This document shows positions 9,495 to 28,508 of a stretch of 28,508 nt of DNA, piece after piece. The stretch spans positions 1 to 28,508 of the IMG/VR virus record IMGVR_UViG_3300034198_002272; one strand, given 5' to 3'. Source of the stretch: a virus. Both the position numbers and the translations under genes were made by a program. Position 1 is the first letter of the stretch, and each line of letters starts with the position of its first letter. The notes beneath the pieces were generated by a model, which worked only from the letters and a program-made list of their open reading frames with translations, was not told the DNA's origin and searched no databases.

Positions 9495-10634
9495 ATGACA
9501 CAGCAGGTAATTAATATTGGTAACGAAGTCAACGACGGTACAGGGGATACACTTCGTACTGGCGCATCAAAGATAAATCAAAACTTTGATGAAGTTTATA
9601 CAGCATTAGCCAGTCGAGGGCCTCAACAACCAGCAGATTGGAGCGCCACTACCGGTGTTACTCGAATCCTTAACAAGCCAACAATACCTGCGGCACAAGT
9701 AAGCAGTGATTGGAACGCAACATCTGGAGTTGCTCAAATATTAAATAAACCCCCATTGTTTAGTGGGGATTACAATGCATTAGACAACAAGCCAACAATA
9801 CCGCCAGCACAAATAAACAGTGACTGGTCAGAAGGTAATCCATCATCAAAGGCTTTTATTGCCAACAAGCCAACAATACCTGCGGCTCAACTACAAAGCA
9901 ACTGGAATGAAACAAATCCTGCTTCAAAGGCTTTTATCGCCAACAAACCAACAATACCAGCCGCCCAAATACAAAGCGATTGGGCTGTGACACAAGATAA
10001 TCGTTTAGATTTTATTAAAAATAAACCAGTATTATTCAGCGGTGACTACAATGATTTAAGCAATCTTCCAACACTTCCAAGCCCTCAAGTGCAAAGTGAT
10101 TGGAATGAAACTAATAATGCGTTAAAATCTTTCATTGCAAATAAACCAACTATCAACACTCTTGTACCAACACAAACTGGCAATCCGGGCAAGTTTTTAA
10201 CTACAAACGGTTCAACAGTATCGTGGGCAACCGTTACTGGCACTGGCCTTACCAGTAGAGCTACTCCGAGTGTAACAACTTCTAGTTTGGTATCCGGTGC
10301 ATCTGCCAATGCTGTGATTACTGGATTTAAAGGTTATGCACTTCTTGGAATAACTGTAACTGCTGGCGCATGGGTAACTGTATATAACAGTACAACTACT
10401 AGGTCAGCAGACGCTGGAAGATCTATTACTACTGACCCAAGTCCAAACTCAGGTATCATTGCAGAAGCTATTAGTACTGGTGCTAGTGCATCAACTACTT
10501 ATTTTACTCCTGCGGTTATAGGTTTTAGTGCTGAAAATTCACCAACAACTAGCATCCCAATAAAAGTTTATAATAATAGCGGATCAACAAATGCTATTAC
10601 AGTAACATTAATATTGTTACAACTAGAGGCATAA
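9495..10634 (+). CDS. Tail fibre protein with tandem SDW...NKPTIP repeats
   Basis: This 379-aa protein begins with a motif common at the N-termini of phage fibre proteins (IGNEVNDGTGDTLRTGASKI, then NQNFDEVYTAL, residues 8-38), probably an attachment or trimer-initiation segment. Residues 47-220 hold six repeats, each starting (S/A)(D/N)W and ending NKPTIPAAQ or a variant, with the Trp at 49, 73, 111, 137, 163 and 203. Two units carry an extra FSGDYNxLxNxPT insert. The C-terminal part (about 225-379) is Ser/Thr/Gly-rich, beta-type and not recognised; it may be the receptor-facing tip. There are no membrane segments or signal peptide. ATG starts 5 nt after the giant gene, and the next ATG (sedolisin) follows 1 nt after the stop. 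The repeat type is well known in T4-like tail fibres; the target is unknown. Confidence 0.8.
   Translation: MTQQVINIGNEVNDGTGDTLRTGASKINQNFDEVYTALASRGPQQPADWSATTGVTRILNKPTIPAAQVSSDWNATSGVAQILNKPPLFSGDYNALDNKPTIPPAQINSDWSEGNPSSKAFIANKPTIPAAQLQSNWNETNPASKAFIANKPTIPAAQIQSDWAVTQDNRLDFIKNKPVLFSGDYNDLSNLPTLPSPQVQSDWNETNNALKSFIANKPTINTLVPTQTGNPGKFLTTNGSTVSWATVTGTGLTSRATPSVTTSSLVSGASANAVITGFKGYALLGITVTAGAWVTVYNSTTTRSADAGRSITTDPSPNSGIIAEAISTGASASTTYFTPAVIGFSAENSPTTSIPIKVYNNSGSTNAITVTLILLQLEA
9633..10154 (+). repeat. Six-unit coding repeat in fibre gene
   Basis: Tandem protein-level repeats with Trp-to-Trp spacings of 24, 38, 26, 26 and 40 residues. At DNA level the 23-base string at 9672-9694 recurs exactly at 9864-9886, with near copies near 9785 and 9943. 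The third and fourth units both carry an (S/A)SKAFIANKPTIPAAQ stretch, indicating recent internal duplication. Confidence 0.8.
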
Positions 10635-10635
10635 T

Positions 10636-12279
10636 ATGTCAACTGATTTATCACCCGCAGACAATCAGCTAATGATCAGTATCTATCTTAAACGAGATAA
10701 GCACGAGAACGGTATGACGTTAGAAGAATATGCAAATGGTGTTATTGCAGGCACATTTCCTGCTCTTGACCATGATGCATTTGTTTATCAGTTTGGCGCA
10801 GTTGAAGATCAAGTTGCTCTTGTAGTCGAGTGGGCAGTTACAAATAATTTAGAAGTAGTAGAATTGTCTCAAGGAACTGCATCGGTTAAAGTAAATGGTA
10901 CCGTAGAACAGTTTAATAATATTTTTAATATTACATTACAAACAGTTACTGAAAATGATAGAACTTATTATACACATGACGGCGATATAACACTACCGTC
11001 TGAAATAAATGATGTTGTACAATCAGTTATTGGTTTAGATAATACTGTATCGTTTAGAAATAATGCAATTTTAGATACATCAACTCCTGGGGATTTAGAA
11101 CCAAACTTAATTTCAAACCCTTCCCCTGTTGATCTTTCATATGCATATAAATTTCCTAGCGGGTCAGGAACATATCTATCACAAGGAAAAGGTTCATGCG
11201 TTGGCATTATATCTCTTGGCGGTGGATATACTACGCAGAACTTAACCAGTACATTTAGTAGAATAAGCCAACCAAACCCAACAGTTGTTGATGTAGGAGT
11301 TGACGGTGCAACTAATAGCCCCAACTATGATCCGTACGGCGGCAACGGTGAAAACATGTTAGACATATATTGTTCAGCATCGGTTGCGCCGTCTGCAAAA
11401 ATTGTTATGTATTTTGCGCCTAATAGTTTTCAAGGATTTATTGATGCAGTGGCCGCAGCCACAAATGATTCAACAAACAATCCCAGCGTGATTAGTATTA
11501 GTTGGGGAACAACTGATTCTAACTTTGTTTATTATGGCTTATTATCTCCATTTGAGATAGCATTACAAGCCGCGGTAGTTAAAGGTATCACAGTATTTGT
11601 GGCCGCCGGAGATTTTGGAGTAAGGGCTGTTAATGGTGGCGCCACTTACACCGTTCAATATCCAGCAACAAGCCCCTATGTAATATGTGCCGGCGGCACA
11701 GTCATGTCTATTAACAACGATTATTCTATAGCTAGCGAAGTTCCTTGGGGAACTAGCGGTGGAAGTTATGCGGGCGGCGGAGGTGTTAGTGCAGTGTTTA
11801 GTGTGCCAAGTTGGCAAACAGGATTCAATAGTAAACTGTACCCAGGCGGAACTGTATCATCCTTAACTGGTAGAGGAATACCCGATGTATCTGCACATGC
11901 TACGGGTTATTTTTTCTATTATGGGCCAAGTAATGCTAGCGGAAGTTTTGTTGGAACAAGTGCAACAGCCCCATTACTAGCAGGCATGATGGCGCGATTA
12001 AATCAGTTAACAGGTAGACGTATAGGATTTGTTAATACTGATTGGTATAGTGCTATAAGCTCTGCATTTAATGATCAAATAACCGGAGACAATCACGGCG
12101 GCAATACTGTAGGCTATTCAGCTACAGCAGGTTGGGATGCTTGTACAGGATTAGGCAGTCCAAAAGGTACAGAACTTTATAAGTTGTATAAAACTGGAAC
12201 AACTTTTCCTAGGCGCAACGATGGTTTTAGACCCTCTACCGGAGCTGTTTATCCAAGAAATGTTTTGGGCATAAGATAA
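10636..12279 (+). CDS. S53 family serine-carboxyl peptidase (sedolisin/kumamolisin type) in tail operon
   Basis: At 547 aa the length fits a full sedolisin: an activation propeptide (about 1-160) and a catalytic domain (about 163-515). All signature elements are visible when compared with the kumamolisin pattern: Glu239 and Asp243 in GENMLD (catalytic Glu and helper Asp), Trp290 in ISWG, Asp326 in AAGDFG (oxyanion Asp), and Ser442 in GTSATAP (nucleophile). The C-terminal calcium-site region contains FNDQITG (Asp480) and GWDACTGLGSPKG. The usual SGTS reads VGTS here, but the Ser is kept. There is no secretion signal or membrane segment, and a 30-residue tail (RRNDGFRPSTGAVYPRN) extends beyond the catalytic domain. 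ATG lies 1 nt after the fibre stop with an AGAGG ribosome site, so it is co-translated with structural genes. Known family members are acid-active, self-processing proteases. Here I infer a virion-borne enzyme or a processor of fibre proteins; the family is sure, the substrate unknown. Confidence 0.93.
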   Translation: MSTDLSPADNQLMISIYLKRDKHENGMTLEEYANGVIAGTFPALDHDAFVYQFGAVEDQVALVVEWAVTNNLEVVELSQGTASVKVNGTVEQFNNIFNITLQTVTENDRTYYTHDGDITLPSEINDVVQSVIGLDNTVSFRNNAILDTSTPGDLEPNLISNPSPVDLSYAYKFPSGSGTYLSQGKGSCVGIISLGGGYTTQNLTSTFSRISQPNPTVVDVGVDGATNSPNYDPYGGNGENMLDIYCSASVAPSAKIVMYFAPNSFQGFIDAVAAATNDSTNNPSVISISWGTTDSNFVYYGLLSPFEIALQAAVVKGITVFVAAGDFGVRAVNGGATYTVQYPATSPYVICAGGTVMSINNDYSIASEVPWGTSGGSYAGGGGVSAVFSVPSWQTGFNSKLYPGGTVSSLTGRGIPDVSAHATGYFFYYGPSNASGSFVGTSATAPLLAGMMARLNQLTGRRIGFVNTDWYSAISSAFNDQITGDNHGGNTVGYSATAGWDACTGLGSPKGTELYKLYKTGTTFPRRNDGFRPSTGAVYPRNVLGIR

Positions 12280-12336: not shown

Positions 12337-12945
12337 ATGCAGAGTAAAGATTTAACGGGGATTCATGTAGAAGGACATATTAAAATATGGGACCCTTCTA
12401 CGAATGAAGTACTCATTGACAAACGTAATGCTATTCATTATGAAAATATCAGTATCGCATTGGCACAAAGTATTGCTAATAGCGGTCAAGGATTTATATA
12501 TCAAATGGCATTTGGCAATGGCGGTACTGCCATCGATCCTACAGGTATTATTACATACTTAACTCCAAATAGTAGCGGAGCAAATGCTAGTCTTTATAAC
12601 GAAACATATACTAAAGTAGTTGACGATAGATCAAGCAATAACACTGATCCAACACGCAACTACATTGAAACTCGTCATGTAACTGGAACAAACTATACAG
12701 ATGTTTTTATTACATGCCTTTTAGACTACGGCGAACCTGAAAATCAGCTAGCATTTGATAATACAACTGATAATCAAGGAACTTTTGTTTTTGACGAATT
12801 AGGTTTAAAAAGCTATAGTTCAACTGGCAATCAGTTATTGCTAACTCATGTTATTTTTCATCCAGTACAAAAATCATTGAACAGATTAATACAGATTGAC
12901 TATACTGTTCGTATACAAAGCCTTACTGGCCTAGCGGGAGTATAA
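12337..12945 (+). CDS. Conserved phage structural-type protein, 202 aa
   Basis: No named domain is recognised. The sequence opens with a conserved-looking block (HVEGHIKIWDPSTNEVLIDK, residues 10-29) and is mixed beta-rich, with a glycine-rich segment (QMAFGNGGTAIDPTG, 58-72) and no transmembrane segment or signal. The final third (FVFDELGLKSYSS, then LLLTHVIFHPVQKS) reads like a beta-sandwich, as in small tail or baseplate proteins. It has its own late-promoter box 23 nt upstream and ends 3 nt before the first of three related fibre genes, so it is probably expressed with them. Candidate roles are a fibre connector or head-tail periphery protein; the sequence alone does not decide between them. 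Confidence 0.7.
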   Translation: MQSKDLTGIHVEGHIKIWDPSTNEVLIDKRNAIHYENISIALAQSIANSGQGFIYQMAFGNGGTAIDPTGIITYLTPNSSGANASLYNETYTKVVDDRSSNNTDPTRNYIETRHVTGTNYTDVFITCLLDYGEPENQLAFDNTTDNQGTFVFDELGLKSYSSTGNQLLLTHVIFHPVQKSLNRLIQIDYTVRIQSLTGLAGV

Positions 12946-12948
12946 TAG

Positions 12949-15108
12949 ATGAGCTATCAAGTTAGATTTAGTGAATCAAACAATCCGCAAAAGTCAACTA
13001 TTGTAGTTGAGGATCAAACTCTTAACACAGAAACTAGTTTAACCTTTGTTGGAAAAAACTATGCAGGATATGCTCAGTTTGTTGCAGAAAACTTTTTACA
13101 CTTATTAGAAAATTTTGCTAAAAACGTAGCACCTTCTAACCCAGTTCAGGGACAGTTATGGTTTGATAATACTGCAGGTGTTAATCAACTTAAAGTATTT
13201 GACGGAACAACTTGGACAGCGGCTGGTAGTGTTAAAAAAGCAACAAGTGCTCCAGCAGTATCAAATAGTATTAGTGGAGATTTATGGGTAGACACTGATA
13301 ATCAACAACTTTATATGTTCTCAGGTTCTAACTGGGTACTTATTGGTCCACAGTTTAGTGGAGGTTTACGAACTGGTCCAGAAGTTGAAAATATTATTGA
13401 TGCATCAAATATCAGTCACGGTGTTGTTTCTCTGTACGCAGACGGCGACCGTATTGCTATTATAAGCAATACAGCCTTTACTCCTAAAGCATTGATCGAA
13501 GGTTTTACCGCAGTTGGCAAAGGTATTAATATAACAACAGTTGGATCGACTAGTTTAACTAACTCAACAAGACTTTGGGGTATAGCTACTGGTGCAGATT
13601 CGTTAGTTGTTAATAATACTTCAGTACCGTCAACTAGTTTCCTACGTTCAGATCAGATCAGTACTACAAACTTTGGATTTAATGTAAGATCTAACAGCGG
13701 TATCGGCCTTGGCGGTGACTTGGGATTTAACATTGGTACCGACACTAACTCTGCAATACTATATCAGAAGACATCCAATAGCGTTATTGATTTCAAGTTA
13801 ACACTTGCAACAGGCGATCCTAAAACAGTTGTTCGTATAAATGCAACTGAAAATACTACATCAGTTGGTATTAACAACACAGCACCACAAGAAGCACTTG
13901 ATGTATCAGGTGTTATTCAAAGTGACACTAGACTAAACATTACTGGAACAGGTTCTACAAGTATATCAACTGCTGGTGGACTAGCAGTTGCAGGAACTTC
14001 TGCATTTAATGATGATTTGACAATAAATGGACAAGTACTTTTTAACTATTTAGATAGTAACGGGAATCCCGTTACAACAAATCCAGTTATAGCCCCATTG
14101 ACTACTGCTGAAAGCGGAAAGTATGATATTGGAGCCCCAGATAAAACGTTTAGAAATATCTACGCTGAAGCATTTGTTGGTAACTTTACAGGGTCATTCA
14201 GCGGAACATTAGCCGGTAATATTAGTGGCTCAGCCGCAAAGTTATCAAGCCCTACATTATTCCAACTGGTTGGTGATGTAACAAGTAATGCTATTAGTTT
14301 TAACGGCCAAACTACTGAAGGAACAGCAATATTTAATACGTCCATTGGACAAGATATTATTTCTGCAAGAGATGAAGTACCTTCATCATACGGAACTGAC
14401 CAGTTTCTCATACTAAGACAGGGTGTTGGCCTAAAAAAGATAACACGTTCTGCAATGTTTTCATCTGCAGCCACAGTACCAACCGGTGCAATATTTCCAT
14501 TTGCAGGAATAACAGTACCGCCGGGGTACTTGTTATGTGACGGCAGTGAAGTTAGACAGTCTCAATATCCTCAGTTATTTGCAGTTATTGGGTATGCATA
14601 CCGTGATATTTCTTTACTAAACGGTGCAAGTACATTTGCACTACCAGATTTACGTGGTCGATTCCCACTAGGTAAAGATAGTATGAATAATAACCTTACT
14701 GTACCAAGTAAGGATAATAGTACAATTTTAATTAATGCGATACCAAATGATCCTGCTGATCGAGTAACAGATGTTACCGCTGATGTAATAGGTGCAGGTA
14801 GCGGATCAGAAGAGATCAATATAGATATTAATAATATTCCAGAACATTCTCATAACTTGCGAGGAACATTGCCAAGTGGAGAAGTTGGAAATCAATATTA
14901 TGCATTTAGAAACGTGCCTGGTTCGCCAGCTGATGTTGATGCCATTCCCGGTAACGGTGCAACTGGTGAAGGCCTTGGACAATACTTAACAGACAGCGGT
15001 GGTATTTTAACCGATGCGTTATCAGTTAAAGATTTAGGAACACCATTTAATGTAATGAATCCATATCAAACTATTAACTATATCATTTATACTGGTATTT
15101 TATCATGA
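12949..15108 (+). CDS. Tail fibre protein with C-terminal phage tail-collar domain
   Basis: 719 aa. Residues 30-135 form the N-terminal module shared with the next two genes: GKNYAGYAQFVAENFLHLLE, then GQLWFD, LKVFDGTTW, GDLWVD and QLYMFSGSNWVLIGP. The middle is a beta-rich shaft with short repeated strand motifs (TLDV/ALDVSG type, near 310-400). Residues about 512-577 match the phage tail-collar family: GAIFPFAGITVPPGYLLCDG, then YPQLFAVIGYAY and FALPDLRGRFPLG. Beyond this come HSH (about 632) and an end of the MNPYQTINYIIYTG type, both usual in collar-domain fibres. Start ATG follows GGGAG (12936-12940). The stop overlaps the next ATG in ATGA. Likely a short- or side-fibre adhesin; the shared module probably docks all three fibres to the same baseplate or fibre partner (inference). 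Confidence 0.88.
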   Translation: MSYQVRFSESNNPQKSTIVVEDQTLNTETSLTFVGKNYAGYAQFVAENFLHLLENFAKNVAPSNPVQGQLWFDNTAGVNQLKVFDGTTWTAAGSVKKATSAPAVSNSISGDLWVDTDNQQLYMFSGSNWVLIGPQFSGGLRTGPEVENIIDASNISHGVVSLYADGDRIAIISNTAFTPKALIEGFTAVGKGINITTVGSTSLTNSTRLWGIATGADSLVVNNTSVPSTSFLRSDQISTTNFGFNVRSNSGIGLGGDLGFNIGTDTNSAILYQKTSNSVIDFKLTLATGDPKTVVRINATENTTSVGINNTAPQEALDVSGVIQSDTRLNITGTGSTSISTAGGLAVAGTSAFNDDLTINGQVLFNYLDSNGNPVTTNPVIAPLTTAESGKYDIGAPDKTFRNIYAEAFVGNFTGSFSGTLAGNISGSAAKLSSPTLFQLVGDVTSNAISFNGQTTEGTAIFNTSIGQDIISARDEVPSSYGTDQFLILRQGVGLKKITRSAMFSSAATVPTGAIFPFAGITVPPGYLLCDGSEVRQSQYPQLFAVIGYAYRDISLLNGASTFALPDLRGRFPLGKDSMNNNLTVPSKDNSTILINAIPNDPADRVTDVTADVIGAGSGSEEINIDINNIPEHSHNLRGTLPSGEVGNQYYAFRNVPGSPADVDAIPGNGATGEGLGQYLTDSGGILTDALSVKDLGTPFNVMNPYQTINYIIYTGILS

Positions 15109-16964
15109 GCTATATTATAAACAAAACAGACGGAACAGTATTAACTGAAGTTGTTGACGGTACTATTGATCAAATAACAACTGATTTAACGCTTATTGGT
15201 AAAAACTCTAGTACCTACGGTGAGTTTTTAAATGAGAACTTTGTAAAACTTTTAGAAAATTTTGCCAATACTAGTTCTCCTACAAATCCTATAACCGGTC
15301 AGCTTTGGTTTGATACAACAGAAAACAGATTAAAAATATATGACGGCAGCGGATTTAGAGTTAGTGGTGGCACACTAGTAGCATCTACCCCGCCTAGCGG
15401 ACTAGTACAAGGTGACATTTGGATTGACAGTAATAGAAAACAGTTATTTTTCTATGACGGTACTCAACTTACATTAGCAGGACCTCCATATACAAACCAA
15501 CAAGGTCTTACTGGTCTTACTATAGAATCAGTATTAGATACAAATCAGATTAGTCATACTGTAGCTTTTTTATATGTTAACCAAACGTTATTGGGTGCAT
15601 TTAGTAAAGACGAGTTTACTCCCGCAACATCGGTTGTAGGCCTTTCTGGAAAAATTTATACTGGATTTACTGCTGGTACATTGTCTGGAATGGAGTTTAA
15701 AACTACAGCAACTAAAGCAAAACAGTTGATTGCTACAGACGGTTCAATATTTACAGCAGAAAGTTTCTTAACAAAAGTTGGAAACGCTACGGTACAAGGG
15801 AAGTTTACTATTTTAAATAGTGTTCCTTTGGTATTAGGCCCTTCTCAAAATACTGAAATCAGAGTAACCGACACTAACTTCAACATAGTAGCCAACAACT
15901 CAGGTCAAGACTTTGCTATAAAAATTAAAAATGGCGCTGTGATTAAATCAGCTATTCAAGTCAAAGCAACTACAGAAAGAGTTGGTATTCTTACAGATGC
16001 TCCTACAGCTACTTTAGATGTTAACGGTGATACTCGTATCAGAGGTAACTTAACAGTAGAAGGTACATCTACTGTTATTCAAAGTTCTACATTATCTGTA
16101 ACTGATAAAAATATTGAACTAGCAAAATCTGATGTTCCAACCGACACACTAGCAGATGGAGGCGGCATTACATTAAAAGGCACATCGGATCACACAATTC
16201 TTTGGTCTAAAGACGCAGTTGATGTTGCAAAAAGCAACTGGACATTTAGTGACCACATTAGTTTAGCTACGGGAAAAACTTATAAAATAAACAACGTTGA
16301 TGTTATAACAGCAACTTCGTTAGGTAATAGTATTGCCAGTGCTCCTGGTTTAAGATCATTAGGTAATCTATTAACATTAACAGTTGATAATATTAGTATT
16401 AATGATAATACAATCAGCGCAAATAATAATGATGGTAATATTGTATTAAATCCGGCTGGTTCAGGTTATATTGATGCATCTAACGCAAAACTTAAAAATC
16501 TAGCAGATCCTGTAGATAATCAAGATGCAGTTACTCTAAAATATTTCAGTGAACATATTACTGGTTTTCCTATTTCAATATCATTAGATATAACAGGATT
16601 ATCGGCAACGACTCCGTTAGTTTATAATCAAATAGCTACAATATTAGGAGATGTATTCCCAACATCAGAGCACCCAGACGGTACACTATGTAGGGTATAT
16701 GCTACAAGACAAGTAATAACATATCCTGCAATATCAGTAACTAAAGGAACAGCAGGATCTGGAGCAGATATTATTGCATCTTTTGTTACTGTAAATAAAG
16801 GCGCATTACAGAATAATCAAACAGTAATGCAAGATTTTTCAATAAATCCGATTAATGCAGGAACAGCTACAACGACATATACAAGAAAACTGTATGTTTT
16901 TAAAACTGTTCTAGGAGATTGGGAGTTCTACGAAGAAACTGCCCTTACTCCGTTGCCCACATAA
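15105..16964 (+). CDS. Tail fibre protein, second paralogue of the shared N-terminal module
   Basis: 619 aa. Residues 28-127 repeat the module of the flanking fibres: LIGKNSSTYGEFLNENFVKL, GQLWFD, LKIYDGSGF, GDIWID and QLFFYDG...LAGP. The shaft carries strand patterns typical of fibre beta-helices, including ATLDVNGDTRIRGNLTVEGT near 303-322, then an NDNTISANNNDGNIVLNPAG block (about 430-450). The C-terminal part from about 485 (FPISISLDITGLS onward) has no collar domain and is not recognised, so it may carry a different receptor specificity. ATG overlaps the previous stop by 4 nt, implying translational coupling. A late-promoter box begins 2 nt after its stop. Confidence 0.83.
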   Translation: MSYIINKTDGTVLTEVVDGTIDQITTDLTLIGKNSSTYGEFLNENFVKLLENFANTSSPTNPITGQLWFDTTENRLKIYDGSGFRVSGGTLVASTPPSGLVQGDIWIDSNRKQLFFYDGTQLTLAGPPYTNQQGLTGLTIESVLDTNQISHTVAFLYVNQTLLGAFSKDEFTPATSVVGLSGKIYTGFTAGTLSGMEFKTTATKAKQLIATDGSIFTAESFLTKVGNATVQGKFTILNSVPLVLGPSQNTEIRVTDTNFNIVANNSGQDFAIKIKNGAVIKSAIQVKATTERVGILTDAPTATLDVNGDTRIRGNLTVEGTSTVIQSSTLSVTDKNIELAKSDVPTDTLADGGGITLKGTSDHTILWSKDAVDVAKSNWTFSDHISLATGKTYKINNVDVITATSLGNSIASAPGLRSLGNLLTLTVDNISINDNTISANNNDGNIVLNPAGSGYIDASNAKLKNLADPVDNQDAVTLKYFSEHITGFPISISLDITGLSATTPLVYNQIATILGDVFPTSEHPDGTLCRVYATRQVITYPAISVTKGTAGSGADIIASFVTVNKGALQNNQTVMQDFSINPINAGTATTTYTRKLYVFKTVLGDWEFYEETALTPLPT

Positions 16965-16993: not shown

Positions 16994-18472
16994 ATGGCAT
17001 ATACCATTAATCATTACGATCAGTCACAAGTTACTGTAATAGCAGACGGTACTATTGATAACACATTAGATATCAAACTTATCGGCAAGAACTATGCAGG
17101 ATACGGTGAAGTACAAAACGAAAATCTAGTGTTTTTACTAGAAAACTTTGCCAGCGCAACTCCTGGGCCAGCAAAACCTATTAGAGGTCAAATTTGGTTC
17201 GATATTGGCGCAAGTAAGCTAAAGTTTTACGATGAAAACGGCAAGTGGCGTACAACTGGTGGTGCCGAAGTTACTACCGGTACTAGACCGACAGGATTAT
17301 CAACAGGTGATTTTTGGTTCAATGAAACAAATGAACAGTTATATGCTTATGTAAAATCAAGAAACGATTATGTGTTGATTGGCCCACAAGCAGTTGCAGG
17401 TAGCGGTACAACACAGATGATTTCAAGAAGTTTACTTGATGATCAAGATCAACCGCATGCTATTATTGAAGCGGTAGTAGATGATGTTACAGTTTACATT
17501 ATTTCGTCAGATACATTTACTTTAAAAACACCTAATACACCTGCTGGTTTTACAGTTATTAAAACTGGATTAACATTACCATATACTCCCGGATCAGGTG
17601 TAAACTCTGGTGTAACCAGTACAGATGTTAGATTCTGGGGAACAGCAACTAACGCTGATAAACTAGGTGGTGTATCAGCAGAAAACTTTGTTCAAGCAGG
17701 CGATGCTAACTTTAACAGTCAAGTACACTTTGGTGATATTGGTTACTTATTAGGTAACGATAATAGACTTAGAGTTTTTATCGATTCAGGAACACCGGTT
17801 GTACAAAACTTGTTGAGCACAGACATTGTCTTTAAAACTAAAGTTAGTGGAAATGAAAAAACACCATTAAAACTATCTGGATCAGATATGCTGCCAGGTG
17901 CAGACGGTGTGTCTAAAATTGGTTCTGAAAGTTTCCAGTTTGCCAATGTATATTCAAATCTATTTACAGGCCCTGCTACAAAAGCTAACAGTTTACAAGT
18001 TGGTAATGATTATAGAACCGCAAGCATTGCTTCAAGTTCAAATACAGTACCAGTTAGAGATGCAGACGGATTTATATTTGCATCTGAGTTTCATGGAACA
18101 GCTACAGCCGCATACTTTGCTGACTTGGCAGAAAAATATCTTGCTGATGCAGACTACGAAGTTGGTACAGTTGTAGCAGTTGGTGGCGAAAAAGAAGTAA
18201 CAGCATCTAACTATGGCGATCTCGCTATTGGTGTTGTTAGTGCTAACCCAGCGTTTAAAATGAATAGTGAACTTGAAGGCGGTACATATATTGCTCTAAA
18301 AGGTCGTGTTCCTGTTAAGGTAACTGGCGCAGTTCGTAAAGGCCAACGTTTAGTTGCAGCCAATAACGGAACAGCAGTTGCCGCAGTACCTCATGCTAAT
18401 GATGTGTTTGCTGTAGCACTAGAATCTAATGATGCTATAGAAACAAAACTCATTGAATGTGTAATATTATAA
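16994..18472 (+). CDS. Tail fibre protein, third paralogue, with distinct C-terminal domain
   Basis: 492 aa. Residues 28-133 carry the shared module in its clearest form: LIGKNYAGYGEVQNENLVFL, GQIWFD, LKFYDENGKW, GDFWFN and QLYAYVK...VLIGP. The middle has fibre-like text (FWGTATNADKLGGVSAENFV, KIGSESFQFANVYSNLFTG). The last about 120 residues begin ADLAEKYLADADYEVGTVVA and continue with IGVVSANPAFKMNSE and ALKGRVPVKVTGAVRKGQRL. I recognise this as a beta-barrel-like end domain recurrent in phage tail fibres. Some comparable domains are intramolecular chaperone/autocleavage domains, but no catalytic residue can be assigned here. It has its own late-promoter box and ribosome site. Confidence 0.82.
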   Translation: MAYTINHYDQSQVTVIADGTIDNTLDIKLIGKNYAGYGEVQNENLVFLLENFASATPGPAKPIRGQIWFDIGASKLKFYDENGKWRTTGGAEVTTGTRPTGLSTGDFWFNETNEQLYAYVKSRNDYVLIGPQAVAGSGTTQMISRSLLDDQDQPHAIIEAVVDDVTVYIISSDTFTLKTPNTPAGFTVIKTGLTLPYTPGSGVNSGVTSTDVRFWGTATNADKLGGVSAENFVQAGDANFNSQVHFGDIGYLLGNDNRLRVFIDSGTPVVQNLLSTDIVFKTKVSGNEKTPLKLSGSDMLPGADGVSKIGSESFQFANVYSNLFTGPATKANSLQVGNDYRTASIASSSNTVPVRDADGFIFASEFHGTATAAYFADLAEKYLADADYEVGTVVAVGGEKEVTASNYGDLAIGVVSANPAFKMNSELEGGTYIALKGRVPVKVTGAVRKGQRLVAANNGTAVAAVPHANDVFAVALESNDAIETKLIECVIL

Positions 18473-19432: not shown

Positions 19433-19783
19433 ATGGATGAACGAGTAGAAAAGGCATTTGCTGTTGCCAACTATATGGCAACATTGTCAAATCAAAAACG
19501 CATAATCAAAGAAGAATTTGATCAAAAACTAGCGTTTTACATCAACGGCGGAACTTTCTCAGTAACCCCCGATTTAATAGCATTTACAAAATCGTTGGTT
19601 GATTTGGGTCATACCCAAGAAATTACATTTATTGATCTAAATAAAATGCCCATTATGATAAGTGATGTGCAGAAATTTTTACAAGATATTGTTTCAGTTT
19701 ACTTTGAAGCAGTTAATGAATACAGTTCAAAGCACGCCGAAATTAAATCTAAGAGAAAACTTAGCGATATTGTTGACCTATGA
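19433..19783 (+). CDS. Small conserved phage protein, 116 aa
   Basis: The start is taken at ATG 19433 rather than the in-frame GTG at 19421, because GAGGA at 19423-19427 sits 5 nt before it and the GTG lies in that ribosome site. The protein begins MDERVEKAFAVANYMATLSN and has a charged, mostly helical N-terminus, a central NGGTFSVTPDLIAF segment, and a helical C-terminus rich in Lys and Glu (YFEAVNEYSSKHAEIKSKRK). There is no membrane segment. Its stop overlaps the next ATG in ATGA, so it is coupled to the glycosyltransferase-like genes. Similar small proteins occur near fibre genes in marine T4-like phages, but I know no assigned function. A regulatory or assembly role is possible and not shown by the sequence. 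Confidence 0.75.
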   Translation: MDERVEKAFAVANYMATLSNQKRIIKEEFDQKLAFYINGGTFSVTPDLIAFTKSLVDLGHTQEITFIDLNKMPIMISDVQKFLQDIVSVYFEAVNEYSSKHAEIKSKRKLSDIVDL

Positions 19784-20637
19784 CACACGGCATACTTATT
19801 TTTGCTCAAAATAATAATGCTATTGATTATGTCAAGATGGCAATTTTTTCAGCAAAACAAGCAATCAAACATTTAAATCTTCCTGTTAGTTTAGTAACTG
19901 ACAGCGAAGAATGGTTGCGATCTAACTATCCAGATGATGTAGAGATATTTGATAAAATTCTTCCTATTGAGTGGACAACTACTACACAATCTAAAAGATT
20001 TCATGACGGTTCACTTGCGTCAAGTACATATGAGTGGAAAAACTTATCTAGATCTAGTGTATACGATTTGTCGCCATACGATAAAACGTTAGTGATCGAT
20101 AGCGATTATATTATTAACTCTAATGTATTAGCCGACGCATTTAAAAATGATCATGCATTTCAAATATATCAAAAGTCTGTTGATCTAGCAGGTTGGAGAA
20201 ATACATCTAGTTTTACTAGATTAAATCCTCGATCGATAAAGTTTTACTGGGCCACTGCTTTTGTTTTTGAAAAGAATCCAGTTACAAAATCATTTTTTGA
20301 TTTAATAAATTTTATAAAAGATAACTGGAAGTACTATCGAACATTGTATCATATAGAAACTTCCACATTTAGAAATGATTATGCTTTTAGTATTGCAATA
20401 CATATAATGAACGGCAGCGTTGATTACAGTGACTTTGCAGTACCGCTTCCTGGATCTATGACATATACTCTTGATAGAGATATATTTGTTTCTATGACTG
20501 ATAACAAAATGAAATTTTTAGTTGAAAAGAAAGGTTATCGAGGTGAGTACATTTTTGCTAAAACAACAGGACTTGATGTGCATGTGATGAATAAACATAG
20601 CCTCTCAAGGTTCTTAGACGGAGGTCAAGGTGTCTAA
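19780..20637 (+). CDS. Glycosyltransferase-like protein (GT-A fold type), copy 1
   Basis: 285 aa. It opens with a beta-strand and alpha-helix pattern (GILIFAQNNNAIDYVKMAIF) as in GT-A nucleotide-sugar transferases. It has a DxD-type acidic motif at 107-109 (VIDSDYII), the expected place for metal and nucleotide-sugar binding, and a later FYWATAFVFEKNPVTKSFFD segment. No signal or membrane segment, so it is cytoplasmic. It is clearly related to the next gene (shared ...AQN...DYVK...A start and ...SPYD.T.V.D.D centre), indicating tandem duplication. Coupled by ATGA to the upstream gene. Donor and acceptor are unknown; fibre proteins or host surface sugars are the natural candidates given the location (inference). 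Confidence 0.72.
   Translation: MTHGILIFAQNNNAIDYVKMAIFSAKQAIKHLNLPVSLVTDSEEWLRSNYPDDVEIFDKILPIEWTTTTQSKRFHDGSLASSTYEWKNLSRSSVYDLSPYDKTLVIDSDYIINSNVLADAFKNDHAFQIYQKSVDLAGWRNTSSFTRLNPRSIKFYWATAFVFEKNPVTKSFFDLINFIKDNWKYYRTLYHIETSTFRNDYAFSIAIHIMNGSVDYSDFAVPLPGSMTYTLDRDIFVSMTDNKMKFLVEKKGYRGEYIFAKTTGLDVHVMNKHSLSRFLDGGQGV
20620..20625 (+). promoter_or_regulatory. Ribosome binding site deciding a GTG start
   Basis: GGAGGT, 4 nt before GTG at 20630 and inside the end of the preceding gene. It is the strongest Shine-Dalgarno in the cassette and supports the GTG start in an 8-nt overlap. Confidence 0.6.
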
Positions 20638-21481
20638 AGGTTTCCTAGTAATAGCACAAAATACTGAAAATGTTGACTATGTCAAACAAGCCTATGCATT
20701 GGCATTAAGTATCAAAGCAACTCAAAGTACAGTAACTAACATTTCAGTAGTTACAAATGATCCGGTTCCAGAAGAATACAGAAATGTATTTGATCAAGTT
20801 ATTGAAATCTTATGGTCTGATGATGCAAAAGATTCTAACTGGAAAGTTGAGAATCGTTGGAAAATGTATTATCAATCTCCATATGATGAAACTATTGTAC
20901 TAGATACAGATATGTTATTCCTTGAAGATATTTCTAGTTGGTGGGAACATTGTGAAGGCAGTGACCTTAAATTTTGTTCAAGAATAAAAAACTATAGAAA
21001 TGAGTTAATAGAACAAGATACATATCATAGAAAAGCATTTATTTCAAACGGACTGTCAAATCCGTATACTGCATTACACTATTTTAAAAAATCTGATCTT
21101 GCACTTACGTTTTATAAAGTCTTAACATTTGTGGTTAGAAATTGGCAGTTGTGTTATCAAAAGTTTGCTCCACAAAACTATCAGCCTTGGCTAAGTATTG
21201 ATCTTGCCGCAGCCATTGCTATTGAAATAATGGATGTTGAAAGTTTAGTTATTGACAAATATTCTCCGTTAGAGTTTGTACACATGAAACTACCGTTACA
21301 AGGTGCCGATACAAACAATGCATATTGGCAAGATCTTTTTTATCAACATTTTAATAAGAACTATGATCTTGTTATAGGAAACTATAAACAACAATATCTA
21401 TTTCATTATGTTGAGAAAGATTTTTTAAATGACAACTTAATTTTTAAACTAGAACAAAGGGTAAAAAATGGAAGAACTTGA
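20630..21481 (+). CDS. Glycosyltransferase-like protein (GT-A fold type), copy 2
   Basis: 283 aa, GTG start backed by GGAGGT. Paralogue of the preceding gene: it starts KGFLVIAQNTENVDYVKQAY and has the acidic motif DTD at 92-94 in SPYDETIVLDTDMLFLEDIS, a hydrophobic strand ending in DxD as expected for a sugar-nucleotide transferase. A conserved-looking NYQPWLSIDLAAAIAIEIMD block follows (about 184-203). It ends in charged helices. No membrane segment. It overlaps the upstream gene by 8 nt and the downstream gene by 14 nt. Low identity to copy 1 outside the core suggests different acceptors or sugars (inference). The family call rests on fold pattern and motif, not a full match. Confidence 0.72.
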   Translation: MSKGFLVIAQNTENVDYVKQAYALALSIKATQSTVTNISVVTNDPVPEEYRNVFDQVIEILWSDDAKDSNWKVENRWKMYYQSPYDETIVLDTDMLFLEDISSWWEHCEGSDLKFCSRIKNYRNELIEQDTYHRKAFISNGLSNPYTALHYFKKSDLALTFYKVLTFVVRNWQLCYQKFAPQNYQPWLSIDLAAAIAIEIMDVESLVIDKYSPLEFVHMKLPLQGADTNNAYWQDLFYQHFNKNYDLVIGNYKQQYLFHYVEKDFLNDNLIFKLEQRVKNGRT

Positions 21482-22079
21482 TGATGAAATTGAATATCTT
21501 TCTGAAGAAGAACTTGCACAAGCTCTAGCACTTTGTTCTTTTACAAATACACACTTTGTATATTTTGAAGAAAACGGTGATATAACCTCAATAACAAATG
21601 AGAAAAAACCAGGTAACTCTTCCTACATAGAGTATCGGTACGAAGATGTGAAAGAGTTTTTAACAGGAAAAATAAACCTGTTAGACTACAGGCTAATATT
21701 AAATACCAAACACGAGCCGGTTATCATTAAAAAGACAGCCGAAGCAGACTATGTTACATATAGTTTTAAAGTTATAGAACCTTACACAAAAGATCCAGTT
21801 ATTCTAGTAGTTTGGAATAAAACAGAAAAAATGTGGCATGTATCTATTAATAAACAAATGCCAGTATACTCTGGGATTAATAGTACACTTTCTTTCTTTG
21901 TTACTTTTGAAAAAAATATAGATTTTTTAATACGCTCTTTTCATATAGAAATGAAAGACCTTATTACTAAAGATGTAGTCGATATTCCTTTCACTTCTAA
22001 GTTTGAAGATGATATAGAATCGATATTGCTTACAACTGGAAAGTTTGTACATTCGTATGGATTAGAAATACATGAATAA
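21468..22079 (+). CDS. Unknown protein between glycosyltransferase-like genes, 203 aa
   Basis: I do not recognise a family. The N-terminus is very acidic (MEELDDEIEYLSEEELAQAL). The rest alternates strands and short helices, with an EYRYEDVKEFLTGKINLLDY block (about 51-70) and a VILVVWNKTEKMWHVSINKQ block. No membrane segment, signal or catalytic motif is evident. ATG lies 14 nt inside the previous gene and its stop is 8 nt inside the next one, so it is tightly co-translated with the transferases. It may be a structural or chaperone-like protein, or an accessory of the cassette; there is no direct evidence for either. Confidence 0.7.
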   Translation: MEELDDEIEYLSEEELAQALALCSFTNTHFVYFEENGDITSITNEKKPGNSSYIEYRYEDVKEFLTGKINLLDYRLILNTKHEPVIIKKTAEADYVTYSFKVIEPYTKDPVILVVWNKTEKMWHVSINKQMPVYSGINSTLSFFVTFEKNIDFLIRSFHIEMKDLITKDVVDIPFTSKFEDDIESILLTTGKFVHSYGLEIHE

Positions 22080-22989
22080 GTTAAAAGTTGCTGATTTTGA
22101 TATTATATATCTCAGTTATGATGAACCAAATGCTGAGAAAAATTATGCTGACCTATTGACAAAAGTGCCTTGGGCAAAACGTGTACATGGTGTACACGGT
22201 AGCGATGCCGCACATAAAGCCTGTGCAGAACTTAGTGAAACAGATAGATTTGTTACAGTAGACGGCGACAACATTGTTAGAGAAGAGTTTTTAAATCAAG
22301 AAGTTGATTTTGAAGAACATAAAGATTTAAGCAAGTGTGTTATTAGTTGGGCCGGGTACAATATTATTAATGGATTAATGTACGGCAACGGCGGATTAAA
22401 ACTTTGGCCTAAAGAGTATGTTCTTAACATGCGTACACACGAAAACGCACCCGCTGACGATCTCAACGCCCAAGTAGATTTTTGCTGGGACGCAGAATAT
22501 ATTCAAATGAATAGTTGTTTTAGCGATGTACACAATAATGCCACTGCTTACCAAGCATGGAGAGCAGGATTCCGTGAAGGTGTAAAAATGTCGTTGGATC
22601 GCGGGTTACGTGTTAATCCTCTTAACTTTGAACAAACAATACATTGGAAAAACATGCAAAGACTACTCATTTGGTTAAATGTTGGCGCAGATGTTAAAAA
22701 CGGTTTGTGGGCAATGTTAGGAGCCCGTCATGGTTGTTATAAAACAAATCTATCAAGTTGGGATTATGTAAATGTTCGTGATTTTAAGTTGTTAGATGAA
22801 ATTTTTAAAGAAGATCTAGAAGGTATTACTGACAATAATATTTTAGATAAGATTAACTTTTACGGCACTGAGCTAAAACATCAACTTGATTTAGATTGTG
22901 CTACTCTTGATGCTGATGCAAGTAAGTTTTTTAAAAAAGTTCATTTGAATCAATATCGCAAGGGATTTGGATTTTTGGATAAAGAATGA
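22072..22989 (+). CDS. Glycosyltransferase-like DxD protein, second type
   Basis: 305 aa. Opens with DFDIIYLSYDEPNAEKNYAD (8-27), then a GVHGSDAAHKAC block (40-51), the acidic motif DGD at 64-66 (FVTVDGDNIV), a Gly-rich YGNGGLKLWPK loop (104-114) and an AWRAGFRE motif at 162-169. The same ordered motifs appear in the C-terminal two thirds of the next gene, so the two are paralogues. The strand plus DxD arrangement is GT-A-like, and proteins of this type are usually annotated as glycosyltransferases in marine T4-like phages. ATG overlaps the upstream gene by 8 nt; the stop overlaps the next ATG by 4 nt. Activity is inferred, not shown. Confidence 0.68.
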   Translation: MNKLKVADFDIIYLSYDEPNAEKNYADLLTKVPWAKRVHGVHGSDAAHKACAELSETDRFVTVDGDNIVREEFLNQEVDFEEHKDLSKCVISWAGYNIINGLMYGNGGLKLWPKEYVLNMRTHENAPADDLNAQVDFCWDAEYIQMNSCFSDVHNNATAYQAWRAGFREGVKMSLDRGLRVNPLNFEQTIHWKNMQRLLIWLNVGADVKNGLWAMLGARHGCYKTNLSSWDYVNVRDFKLLDEIFKEDLEGITDNNILDKINFYGTELKHQLDLDCATLDADASKFFKKVHLNQYRKGFGFLDKE

Positions 22990-24101
22990 AAAGAGATATA
23001 TTTTTTTATTGGACTGGTAAAGAACCTATACATAAATTTGAAGGCGTTAGGAGAGTTTTCCCTACAGCTAGATTTATTAAACTTCAAAAAAATCCAGTTA
23101 AAACTGCAAAACATATAGCACACGAATCCAGGACTGTTGAGTTTTGGTTAATGAGTATTGATACAATAGTTGAAAACACTATCGATAAAATAACAATACC
23201 AGAATGGGATCAAAAGTATGTTCACGTATTCAACAATGATTCTGTAACAGCATTTTTAGTGCCCAAGGCTTATCAGTATAATGCATCCGAAATAGAGATA
23301 GGTCATTTTGAAAATAAAAAAATATTTGAATCAACTGACGTAAAAAATAGACCATATGATATATTTTTCTTGTCATACGATGAAGAGTTTGCTGATGATA
23401 ACTGGAAAACTTTAGTAAAAAGATTTCAATATGCAGAACGTATACAAGGTATAACTGGTATTTTTAATGCACACTTAGAAGCGGCAAAGAAATCAACTAC
23501 AGATTATTTTTGGGTAGTTGATGCAGATGCTGCCATTGAAGATACATTTAAGTTTGAATATAAAGTATCAGAGTGGGATTTTGATGTTGTACATATATGG
23601 AAAAGTCGTAATGCAGTTAATGGACTAGAGTACGGCCATGGCGGTGTTAAACTTATTCCTAAGTTTATTTTACTTACAAGAGCAGACAAAAACGCTATCG
23701 ATGTAACTACGAGTATTGGATCAAAAATAACAGTATTTGATGAAATATCAAATACTAACAACTTTGCTGTCACTCCGCTAACTGCTTGGAGAGCTGGATT
23801 TAGAGAAGCCGCAAAATTGACCAGTCAAGTAGTAAGTAGACGCAATGATAAAAATACCGCTACTAGATTAGAAGCATGGTGTAACGTCAATCAAAACCAC
23901 CCGTTAGGTAGTTATGTACTTGCTGGCGCAAGACTTGGAAAAAAGTTTGGTATGCGTAACATCAAAAATAAACCCGAGTTAGCACTAATCAATGATTATG
24001 CTTGGCTCGAGTCTAAGTTTGAAGAGTATATTGTAATGTCTAAGCGTATTGCTGAGTTTATGGAGTTAAACCAGCAGCCAGAGGAAAAATCTCAGCAATA
24101 A
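22986..24101 (+). CDS. Glycosyltransferase-like DxD protein with N-terminal extension
   Basis: 371 aa. Residues about 123-280 parallel the preceding protein: PYDIFFLSYDEEFADDNWKT, then DAD at 179-181 (WVVDADAAI), YGHGGVKLIPK (216-226) and AWRAGFREAAK (267-277). Residues 1-120 are extra and open MKRDIFFYWTGKEPIHKFEG. They include WDQKYVHVFNNDSVTAFLVP and look like a second, degenerate alpha/beta unit without an obvious DxD, perhaps an acceptor-binding or dimerisation part. The Gln- and Glu-rich C-terminus is encoded by DNA that also encodes the antisense C-terminus of thyX (44-bp overlap). Last gene of the plus-strand block. Confidence 0.68.
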   Translation: MKRDIFFYWTGKEPIHKFEGVRRVFPTARFIKLQKNPVKTAKHIAHESRTVEFWLMSIDTIVENTIDKITIPEWDQKYVHVFNNDSVTAFLVPKAYQYNASEIEIGHFENKKIFESTDVKNRPYDIFFLSYDEEFADDNWKTLVKRFQYAERIQGITGIFNAHLEAAKKSTTDYFWVVDADAAIEDTFKFEYKVSEWDFDVVHIWKSRNAVNGLEYGHGGVKLIPKFILLTRADKNAIDVTTSIGSKITVFDEISNTNNFAVTPLTAWRAGFREAAKLTSQVVSRRNDKNTATRLEAWCNVNQNHPLGSYVLAGARLGKKFGMRNIKNKPELALINDYAWLESKFEEYIVMSKRIAEFMELNQQPEEKSQQ

Positions 24102-26217: not shown

Positions 26218-26765
26218 TACTTTTTTCCTATAATCATAAACCGTTTATAAGAACTGATTGTTTTTGCACCTTCAAAAAACAACTCTGATAACGGATACAT
26301 TGTTTTTAATCCTTCGATTGTTTTAACGGTGTTAACGTGCTCTGGTATTTCTAAGTTATTAGATTGTATTAAACATATAGTACCAGCAGGAATATTTTCA
26401 AACCAATCGTGTGATTCCATATGTTCCGCACTCGTGTTAATAACACAGTTTACTTCACTAGGATAATCTATTTCATTAACATCTTTAGGGAATGATTTAA
26501 ACTGCCAATCTTTTTGTTCCCATAAGTTATTAATAGTGTTAGCAACAATACATGCCTCGGGATCTAAATCAAAAGATCGGCATGTGTTTATTTCAATGTT
26601 GTCCCTAATCTTAAGAATAAAAAAGAGGGTAGCGTACCACCCTCCTAACAGGTAAACATTTAATGCACCAACATTATTTGTGTTGATGCAGTTTTCTAGT
26701 TCTCTAGCGGCCCATATTTTAGATTTAAGTTGACCTGCTGAAAATGCTTCAGGATTGAGTTCCAT
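26217..26765 (-). CDS. Small SAM-dependent methyltransferase-like protein, 182 aa
   Basis: The start is placed at ATG 26765 because GAGGA (26771-26775) is 5 nt upstream; a longer reading frame upstream adds a spurious hydrophobic segment inside the VWA gene. Pattern of a class I methyltransferase: a strand-loop motif VYLLGGWYATL (37-47) in place of the usual GxGxG, an acidic ribose-binding-type motif SFDLDPEA (64-71), a VNCVINTSAEHM strand and motif IV-like segment (105-116), and GTICLIQSNN (128-137). Phage proteins with this LGGWY motif are usually labelled methyltransferases. Substrate unknown; DNA, RNA, protein or small molecule are all possible. It overlaps the upstream VWA gene by 17 nt. 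Confidence 0.65.
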   Translation of the reverse strand: MELNPEAFSAGQLKSKIWAARELENCINTNNVGALNVYLLGGWYATLFFILKIRDNIEINTCRSFDLDPEACIVANTINNLWEQKDWQFKSFPKDVNEIDYPSEVNCVINTSAEHMESHDWFENIPAGTICLIQSNNLEIPEHVNTVKTIEGLKTMYPLSELFFEGAKTISSYKRFMIIGKK

Positions 26766-27945
26766 TATTTTCCTCGTAATATGCATATTCGCCAAACGGA
26801 GGAACAATAGTGTTATTACCATGAATAATGAATACTGTATCACAGTAGTTTTCATCACCCCACTCACCGTATGGATAACCGTCTGTAAACATGATGAACT
26901 TCTTAGGAGTAATATCCTGTTCTTTCATGTATTCCCAGTTAGCCATAAAATCAGTACCTCCGCCGCCCATGACTTCGTAGTTATCAAACTCGTCTGCACT
27001 GTACCCATCAAAATTGGCTTCGTTGTAAATGTTAGTGTCAAAGCACCAAAGTTTGATCTTGAAATCTTTGTATTCTTGCATAATACCTTTGATTTCACTT
27101 AAGAAGTCTTTTGCTTGATCGTCACCGATAGAACCAGACATGTCAATGCTAACGCAGATATCAATAGTTTCTTCAAAGTTCATTCCTGGCAATACTGCAC
27201 CAATGTGCCAACCTTTACGATTAGGACGTTGGAATGTAAAGTCATTACGGATAGTACTTTGGATCTGTTGGCGCAAAATTTCACGCCAGTTCATTTTAGG
27301 TTCGGTGAGTTCTTTAATCATGCGTTGGATGCTTGCAGGAGTATTGCCTGCACCCGCCGCCTGTGCCGCTTGAATAGTAGCTTCACGAATCTCGTCACGA
27401 ATCTGTTTGAGCTCGTCTTTGGTATAGCTGGGTTTATTACCTTTACCCTTGCCATCTTTATCACCCCAGTCGACGTGATCATCTAGCAGTTGCCCCAATG
27501 CTTCTAACTCTTGCTCATCCATGTCGTCATAGATTTTGTCGTATACTTCTTCCGCACTCATACCGTAATATTTGGTATCGTGAAAAATCTTAATCTCTTT
27601 AGGAGGAACTTCACCGATTCGATCTCGAATCAACTGTCCGTTAACACAATAGTCAGCGGCAATATTAAAAATCTTTCGATTACGACCTTCGTTACGACCC
27701 ATATGGTCAAATACATTATGCAAGATTTCGTGAGCAATAACAAACTCAACCTGTTTAGTAGTAAGGGGAGTAAAAAACTCACGATTGAAGAAAATGCTAC
27801 GACCATCAGTTGCGGCTGTGGCACACCAATCGGATGCATCTACGATTTTAAGGCGAGTAGCTATATTACCAAAAAACGGATGGCGGAGTAGCAAGCCTAC
27901 TCGGGCTACAATAATTTTATCAATAACTGGATCTAAATGCGACAT
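26749..27945 (-). CDS. VWA domain protein with DUF2201-like peptidase domain, MoxR partner
   Basis: 398 aa from ATG 27945, chosen because AGGAG lies 5 nt upstream and an in-frame GTG at 27984 lies upstream of the predicted transcript start. The N-terminal domain has HEILHNVFDH (72-81), a zinc-protease-like HExxH followed by NIAADYCVN (94-102), as in DUF2201-type putative metallopeptidases. The middle is charged (linker about 160-215). The C-terminal VWA-like domain keeps the metal site: DMSGS (D268, S270, S272), GGGGTDF (T331) and FTDG (D355). The gene follows that of a MoxR-like AAA ATPase, a pairing known in bacteria and phages where the ATPase remodels targets brought by the VWA partner. 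Target unknown. Proteolytic activity is possible, not shown. Confidence 0.88.
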   Translation of the reverse strand: MSHLDPVIDKIIVARVGLLLRHPFFGNIATRLKIVDASDWCATAATDGRSIFFNREFFTPLTTKQVEFVIAHEILHNVFDHMGRNEGRNRKIFNIAADYCVNGQLIRDRIGEVPPKEIKIFHDTKYYGMSAEEVYDKIYDDMDEQELEALGQLLDDHVDWGDKDGKGKGNKPSYTKDELKQIRDEIREATIQAAQAAGAGNTPASIQRMIKELTEPKMNWREILRQQIQSTIRNDFTFQRPNRKGWHIGAVLPGMNFEETIDICVSIDMSGSIGDDQAKDFLSEIKGIMQEYKDFKIKLWCFDTNIYNEANFDGYSADEFDNYEVMGGGGTDFMANWEYMKEQDITPKKFIMFTDGYPYGEWGDENYCDTVFIIHGNNTIVPPFGEYAYYEENNGTQS

Positions 27946-27950
27946 ATCTG

Positions 27951-27955
27951 CTCCT
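27951..27955 (-). promoter_or_regulatory. Shine-Dalgarno of the VWA/peptidase-like gene
   Basis: AGGAG, 5 nt before ATG at 27945 on the minus strand. It decides the start in favour of the 398-aa product over longer alternatives. Confidence 0.75.
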
Positions 27956-27974
27956 AAGTGTTTACTATGTATAT

Positions 27975-28003
27975 AGTATAACACCTCCCGTAGGAGGTGT
28001 CAA
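27975..28003 (-). promoter_or_regulatory. Sigma-70-type promoter (TTGACA-17 bp-TATACT)
   Basis: Read on the minus strand, TTGACA (28003-27998) is followed by exactly 17 bases and TATACT (27980-27975): a perfect -35, ideal spacing and a -10 one base from consensus. The start of transcription would fall near 27968, giving a leader of about 23 nt with AGGAG before the VWA gene. Host-polymerase promoters of this kind drive early genes in T4-like phages, so the minus block from the VWA gene to thyX is probably early (inference). Confidence 0.75.
27981..28000. repeat. Perfect inverted repeat filling a promoter spacer
   Basis: ACACCTCC and GGAGGTGT form an 8-bp perfect inverted repeat around a 4-base centre (CGTA on the plus strand), spanning the whole -35 to -10 spacer and the last three bases of the -35 box. 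It lacks a following T-run on either strand, so it does not look like an intrinsic terminator. An operator for a repressor, or a hairpin in read-through RNA from the ATPase gene, are the alternatives. Confidence 0.75.
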
Positions 28004-28019
28004 CTATCCTCAAACCGTT

Positions 28020-28508
28020 TTATCGGCCGTCTTTTTCAGTTGCGGCGCTAATGTACTTACCGAACTTAGCATGGAACTCGTCAAAACATTTAATCTCGTC
28101 TGGATCCAATGGCAGTTTGTAGCTAGACAATGCCAACTTAGTGCCCATAATAACTAGCTCAGTTTCAAAATTATCCATCATAAACTGGAAGAAACAGTTA
28201 ACTTGATCATTCCAGTTTTTGGCTTTTTTGTCGCATGCATCTTTGAGTTCGTAGCAAAGGCTAACAGTCAACGAGTACATTGCTGAAATCTCTTTGGACT
28301 CCATTTTCTTAACTTTGCCATTCAAAATATCACCAGGATTTGGCATCTTGCTAGCAATCTTACGATGTGCCATAAACTTAACAGCCAAACCTTCGCCAAC
28401 TGAACCTGATACCAAATCAGTCATTGTATTTTCGTCAGTGTCATCGTCGTGCAACAACTCGCTAACAAATGACCAGCTACGTGGAGTAGCAAACGAACGT
28501 GAGCTAGA
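28020..28508 (-). CDS. MoxR-like AAA ATPase, C-terminal part (5' partial)
   Basis: The frame is open to the window edge, so the protein begins outside; 162 residues are visible. The first visible stretch reads RSFATPRSWSFVSELLHD, the sensor-2/lid-type TPRSW...S signature of MoxR-family ATPases, where the Arg contacts ATP. The C-terminal helical part (NDQVNCFFQFMMDNFETELV and onward) is the usual lid plus extension. Walker A and B are not in view. A TTG at 28457 is in frame but is not the start, since the lid motif precedes it. Placed directly upstream of the VWA/peptidase-like gene, it is very likely its partner chaperone-like ATPase. The call rests on the lid motif plus context. Confidence 0.7.
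   Translation of the reverse strand, partial: SSSRSFATPRSWSFVSELLHDDDTDENTMTDLVSGSVGEGLAVKFMAHRKIASKMPNPGDILNGKVKKMESKEISAMYSLTVSLCYELKDACDKKAKNWNDQVNCFFQFMMDNFETELVIMGTKLALSSYKLPLDPDEIKCFDEFHAKFGKYISAATEKDGR

Follow-up and report, generated by a model that had tools for sequence, protein, structure and literature searches.

Kumamolisin and kumamolisin-As (PDB 1t1e, 1sio, 1gt9) belong to the S53 family of peptidases, which usually work in acid and carry propeptides that serve both as inhibitors and as folding aids. The protease encoded in the viral DNA analysed here resembles these enzymes in possessing a propeptide, a catalytic domain, the five active-site residues and the Asp/Gly/Asp of the calcium site, but differs in lacking an obvious secretion signal, in being encoded in a phage fibre operon, in carrying an extra conserved C-terminal tail and in having Ser in place of Glu32; furthermore, the phage S53 proteins form a clade of their own. 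Among viral proteins, the strongest structural matches (BFVD) are the S53-like proteins of Homavirus and Barrevirus (~29% identity), which come from giant viruses and are annotated as subtilase-family serine proteases. In gene position, the counterparts are the subtilisin-like proteases of the cyanophages S-CREM1, S-H38, Sf-FR1 and S-RSM4 (phrog_9158), which lie behind the same fibre C-terminal domain, with a tail-pin/fibre gene upstream, and part of which share a related C-terminal tail. These, however, are S8 enzymes (Asp-His-Ser) of T4-like cyanophages, whereas the protease described here is an S53 enzyme (Glu-Asp-Ser) and RaK2-like jumbo phages are the comparison for its carriers. Phage tailspike depolymerases and tip adhesins likewise put an enzyme or adhesin on a fibre and are encoded directly after the fibre gene; here the likeness is drawn in terms of role, and the present enzyme would cut protein, not sugar. 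Sugar-cutting phage tail enzymes are well known; to our knowledge, no such class has been established for general proteases that phages carry against surface proteins, and the papers searched described none. The cyanophage subtilisin-like genes are already known, annotated singly, and in the open-access literature we found no description of S53 peptidases in tailed phages, of a fibre-protease cassette or of a tail that crosses protease families.

The window is the entire stretch of DNA that was analysed, a 28.5-kb IMG/VR fragment of 28,508 nucleotides (Table 1). By sequence comparison, its protease ORF is predicted to encode a full-length S53 pro-protease, and the family membership is secure. 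A phmmer search of the PDB aligned residues 8-516 with pro-kumamolisin 1t1e (E = 1.7e-85), followed by kumamolisin-As, sedolisin (~1e-22) and TPP1 (~1e-17), and none of 50 shuffled copies of the protein matched kumamolisin; Pfam recognised the propeptide alone. In the kumamolisin alignment, Glu239, Asp243, Trp290, Asp326 and Ser442 correspond to E78, D82, W129, D164 and S278, so that the Glu-x-x-x-Asp motif, the catalytic Ser and the oxyanion Asp of S53 are all in place. The first 45 residues show no strong hydrophobicity and thus no obvious Sec signal. The earlier note had described a complete S53 protease with these five residues, a propeptide and no secretion signal, and had proposed a profile check of the triad; it was right on each count, the catalytic residues being aligned with those of kumamolisin and not misplaced. 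Its further claim of an intact calcium-site region holds for Asp480 (D316), Gly499 (G336) and Asp501 (D338) but not for the positions of I317 and G334, which are occupied by Gln481 and Thr497. Kumamolisin Glu32, which we take to be a member of the active-site hydrogen-bond network of that enzyme, is replaced by Ser193. An S8 (subtilase) identity was considered and rejected: the protein has no PF00082 match and carries the S53 Glu/Asp/Ser set instead.

Table 1. Features of the protease locus and adjoining genes in the window
Feature	Position	Strand	Evidence or remark
Fibre gene (379 aa) with an N-terminus like that of T4 gp9/10 at residues 4-40, repeats and the conserved C-terminal domain	9495..10634	+	PF07880, phrog_677/9627/15343
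Fibre C-terminal beta-sandwich domain (fibre residues 240-379), constant partner of the protease slot	10212..10631	+	AF2 pLDDT 93
Junction CTAGAGGCATAATATG; fibre codons L-E-A-stop with AGAGG, 1-nt gap	10620..10638	+	Sequence
S53 (sedolisin/kumamolisin) pro-protease, 547 aa	10636..12279	+	phmmer to 1t1e; active site mapped
Pro-kumamolisin activation domain, residues 8-136	10657..11043	+	PF09286, E = 9.8e-13
S53 catalytic domain, residues 163-516	11122..12183	+	phmmer vs PDB, kumamolisin alignment
C-terminal tail, residues 517-547, ..GTTFPRRNDGFRPSTGAVYPR..	12184..12276	+	Conserved in phage S53s; proposed docking tag
202-aa protein	12337-12945		Downstream of protease
Fibre-like protein (one of three)	12949-15108		Downstream of 202-aa gene
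Fibre-like protein (one of three)	15105-16964		Downstream of 202-aa gene
Fibre-like protein (one of three)	16994-18472		Downstream of 202-aa gene

IMG/VR was scanned with the window protein and its alignment as well as with the tail and fibre domain, and 31 distinct phage S53 sequences were obtained. The Glu/Asp/Trp/Asp/Ser set, the GT preceding the catalytic Ser and the D316, G336 and D338 positions are retained in all 31, and three close pairs show dN/dS of ~0.04-0.06, which indicates strong purifying selection on the phage S53. Glu is present at the Glu32 position in 25 of the 31, and the only other carriers of Ser are five proteins that have lost the propeptide. The latter (L034, L035, L036, L052/L053 and L058) fall into one subclade and have 25-29 residues ahead of the mature start, compared with ~150-175 in the others, while both the tail and the complete active site are retained; for the one that was examined, the best match was still kumamolisin. 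Given that S53 propeptides aid folding, these proteins would need other folding support, which the fibre could conceivably provide.

A quickly built maximum-likelihood tree separates the 31 phage S53s from 37 cellular ones (Pseudomonadota, Acidobacteriota, Bacillota, Chloroflexota, archaea and others) with branch support of 100; since the cellular set was drawn from the best 80 of 574 matches, a closer donor may exist. These 574 relatives came from a genome scan with the core alignment including kumamolisin, and a scan with the phage-specific S53 motifs gave no bacterial relative. A tblastn search detected no S53 in 50,697 phage records, from which records very near the window were possibly left out; the homologue L007 (45% identical), used as the query against the same records, gave no match at E <= 1. 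The search of phage genomes for S53 genes next to fibre genes that the earlier note had proposed was productive in IMG/VR, where nearly all of the 31 are fibre-linked, and empty in the phage records.

The 202-residue protein downstream of the protease is nearest to those of the jumbo phages Phosso and Atu_ph07, followed by RaK2-like phages; the syntenic stretch of Phosso and Atu_ph07 contains no annotated protease. Contigs with related S53 genes are up to 345-355 kb long, and in one of them the region of the gp23 capsid gene shows ~69% DNA identity to BF/RaK2-type jumbo phages. A cyanobacterial host was considered for these phages but is not favoured, given that psbA is missing from 14 related, incomplete S53 contigs and that RaK2/BF-type jumbo phages are the closest by gp23; the host is not obviously a cyanobacterium.

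Upstream of the protease, the window encodes an ORF of more than 3,100 residues, open at the window edge, and the fibre protein, the gene of which ends 1 nt ahead of the protease ATG, as had been noted earlier. An AGAGG formed by the fibre Leu-Glu-Ala codons, which resembles a ribosome-binding site, is located 6 nt ahead of this ATG, and this position within the last fibre codons, together with the 1-nt gap, suggests that translation of the two genes is coupled. The fibre C-terminal domain is confidently modelled as a beta-sandwich (AF2, 43 sequences); it matches cyanophage fibre proteins in BFVD and has no match in the PDB better than E = 6e-3. The three additional fibres previously reported downstream are indeed fibre-like proteins, but one small gene, that for the 202-aa protein, comes first. 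By eye, the N-termini of the three look alike over ~90 residues (..GKN..GY....N...LLENFA..QLWFD..), which would fit attachment to one virion site. Farther downstream, 19780-24101 holds consecutive ORFs to which PHROG assigns no function; one of them, 22986-24101, weakly matches glycosyltransferase-2 and by eye resembles 22072-22989. On the minus strand, 26749-27984 encodes a DUF2201 metallopeptidase-like/VWA protein and adjoins 28020-28508, also on the minus strand, a fragment that matches a PHROG ATPase family; the two are reminiscent of an ATPase-VWA gene pair.

In the first loci inspected, nearly every S53 gene starts 1 nt after a fibre gene with the same conserved last ~140 residues. The exception is L011, where the giant protein is directly upstream and the locus has the protease and its tail but no fibre domain. 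The slot behind the fibre domain was then surveyed by searching with this domain alone and classifying the next ORF for the best 80 of 202 matches. A protease comes next in 62 of the 67 distinct loci among these (S53 in 29 and S8 in 33), counts that depend on the query having been taken from protease-linked fibres. In the same set, 28 of the 29 S53 loci and 26 of the 33 S8 loci have a 1-nt gap, and the remaining five of the 67 comprise three ORF-calling artefacts inside fibre regions, L115:275-2992 and L093, in which the fibre domain is followed by a homologue of the 202-aa protein. As judged from these alignments and gene orders, the slot is modular: S53 and subtilase bodies replace one another, with the fibre domain constant and the tail retained in most cases. 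The window locus fits this fibre-plus-protease cassette, with a clan-SB protease 1 nt behind the conserved domain and the shared tail.

The S8 proteins were assigned by PF00082 for representatives and by a profile for the others. Among the 36 that were aligned, Ser and His are present in all, and the catalytic Asp in 28; the remaining eight have Glu instead and have also lost the usual Asn position. The subgroup with Glu at the catalytic Asp (L126, L132, L135, L137, L139, L115:5395-7644, L069 and L161, the last from S-CAM1) has Ile at the Asn position, with His and Ser kept, and those members that were scanned match phrog_15006, 'tail fiber protein'. In L068:5473-8109, an insert at approximately residues 500-632, inside the subtilase domain, resembles a hypothetical protein of S-SRM01 as well as part of a protein annotated as tail fibre in Stenotrophomonas phage AXL_1.

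The kumamolisin match stops short of the last 31 residues of the window protein, which are conserved among its relatives. A tail is present on every phage S53 with a complete 3' end, typically as G(S/T)TFPKQNYGFRPxTGxxYPRRTTGAR, with a variant form in L010 and L011, and most S8 proteases of the slot have the same ending of ~25 residues (..RPxTGxxYPR..). Apart from S53 proteins, all matches of an HMM built from the S53 tails are S8 proteases behind the fibre domain (e.g., ...TGTAFPKQAIGVRPATGATYPRPRLRRRG, E ~2e-8). Reciprocally, an HMM of the S8 tails matched 83 S53 ORFs (median E 6e-7) among the 3,414 ORFs searched and nothing outside the S53 and S8 sets among these ORFs, and its reversed-sequence control was empty. 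A scan of the collection with the tail alone recovered 33 contigs, all with S53, and no tail was found on the ORFs at 80 bacterial S53 loci (the best 80 of 574). Two S8 subgroups have different C-terminal ends, and in the AF2 model of the window S53 the tail is at low confidence; this model is moderate overall (pLDDT 59.6) and was left out of judging the tail. A short segment common to two unrelated enzyme bodies that occupy one gene slot after one fibre domain is best read as a putative docking tag, which would bind the fibre domain. The idea of a virion-docking tag, already raised in the earlier note, is thus supported as far as the distribution of the tail is concerned, with binding to the fibre being the conditional part.

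The fibre domain was also found in 48 phage records, all from cyanophages or marine viruses. In addition to the four cyanophages mentioned above, a subtilisin-like protease directly follows this domain in S-H9-1, S-WAM2, S-CAM4 and ACG-2014e/h/j by match coordinates and in S-CAM1 by Pfam. The slot is occupied by a different protein in S-BM3, Sf-CH1b, S-SCSM1 and one copy in ACG-2014i, and by a smaller unrelated gene in the siphoviruses S-CRES2 and PSS2. An alternative slot family of 608-905 aa (L165:3882-5852, L162:3823-5649, L163:3877-6174, L167:7366-9696 and L115:275-2992) follows the fibre domain in cyanophages, includes gp140 of S-SCSM1 and mostly ends in ..CARTT or similar, with no Pfam match in the members scanned. 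In the S-SCSM1 record, gp141 (the fibre), gp140 (the slot protein) and gp144 each bear a virion-protein label; gp144 is a separate subtilase, not behind the fibre domain, that combines S8 with Laminin_G/ConA-like (lectin-like) domains. Mass spectrometry identified 45 virion proteins in this phage (PMC9602691), and we infer that the label denotes such detection, since several structural genes in the record do not carry it. For S-CREM1, 14 virion proteins have been reported.

Of the two functions proposed in the earlier note, a virion-carried enzyme that digests host surface protein and a maturation protease for the fibres or the giant protein, the former appears preferable. On balance, we consider it probable, by a modest measure, that the locus is a modular fibre-plus-protease cassette in which an active S53 enzyme is produced together with a tail fibre, is probably mounted on it and digests host surface protein. 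The fibre and the protease would be translated from the coupled genes; by analogy with kumamolisin, the protease would fold with its propeptide and then activate itself. The C-terminal tail may dock it on the beta-sandwich domain of the fibre or an adjacent virion surface, a proposal that derives from the occurrence of this tail on enzymes of both families, S53 and S8, that follow the same fibre domain. The virion would then bring the enzyme to the cell, where cleavage of an S-layer, pilus, outer-membrane or matrix protein may clear or expose the receptor, as a protein-cutting counterpart of the sugar-cutting tailspikes. Several observations count against a fibre-borne enzyme, namely the lack of the fibre domain in L011, the location of gp144 away from this domain, the differing ends of the two S8 subgroups, the low confidence of the modelled tail and the acid preference usual for S53.

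An assembly or maturation protease that trims the adjacent fibre (e.g., a C-terminal chaperone segment), other fibres or the giant protein would also fit the coupled expression and the strict association with a single fibre domain, and phage-assembly proteases are known in general. Yet S53 and S8 enzymes, with their different catalytic machineries, replace each other in one slot, which argues against a protease bound to one cut site; the fibre domain and the protease each occur without the other nearby (L093 and the siphoviruses on the one hand, L011 on the other); and the fibre C-terminus is conserved to the last residues in the relatives, with no obvious common cut site. For these reasons, and because a cyanophage homologue, the subtilase with lectin-like domains, bears a virion-protein label, a surface enzyme of the virion is favoured and we regard maturation as unlikely. 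The same gp144 label weighs against a free protease that acts late inside the cell, degrading host proteins or clearing debris at lysis, with the fibre linkage reflecting late expression only. The late operon position is compatible with such a role, and an intracellular stage is certain in the absence of a secretion signal, but the linkage to a single fibre domain, seen in many loci and with either protease family, and the restriction of the tail to the slot would be left unexplained, so that we find this role decidedly improbable. Finally, phage tips often reuse enzyme folds, and the eight S8 proteins with an altered Asp and Asn as well as the Ser at the Glu32 position of the window protein could point to a non-catalytic adhesin or a structural cap at the fibre tip in which the enzyme fold has been retained. 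The intact active site throughout the phage S53 set and the invariant Ser and His of the S8 proteins make this very improbable.

A broader form of the fibre-borne surface protease proposal can be put forward, which we would place somewhat short of probable: in at least two lineages of tailed phages, one fibre domain would dock interchangeable active S53 and S8 proteases via a single C-terminal tag, the virions would cut surface proteins at adsorption, and the propeptide would have been lost in one lineage, perhaps because docking supports folding. The present findings extend the S53 family to tailed phages, and the propeptide-free subclade bears on the folding of S53 enzymes. Should the cassette work as proposed, host recognition would gain a route open to testing, enzymes could be attached to phage fibres by means of a portable tag, and many of the cyanophage genes currently labelled hypothetical or subtilisin-like would have a likely function.
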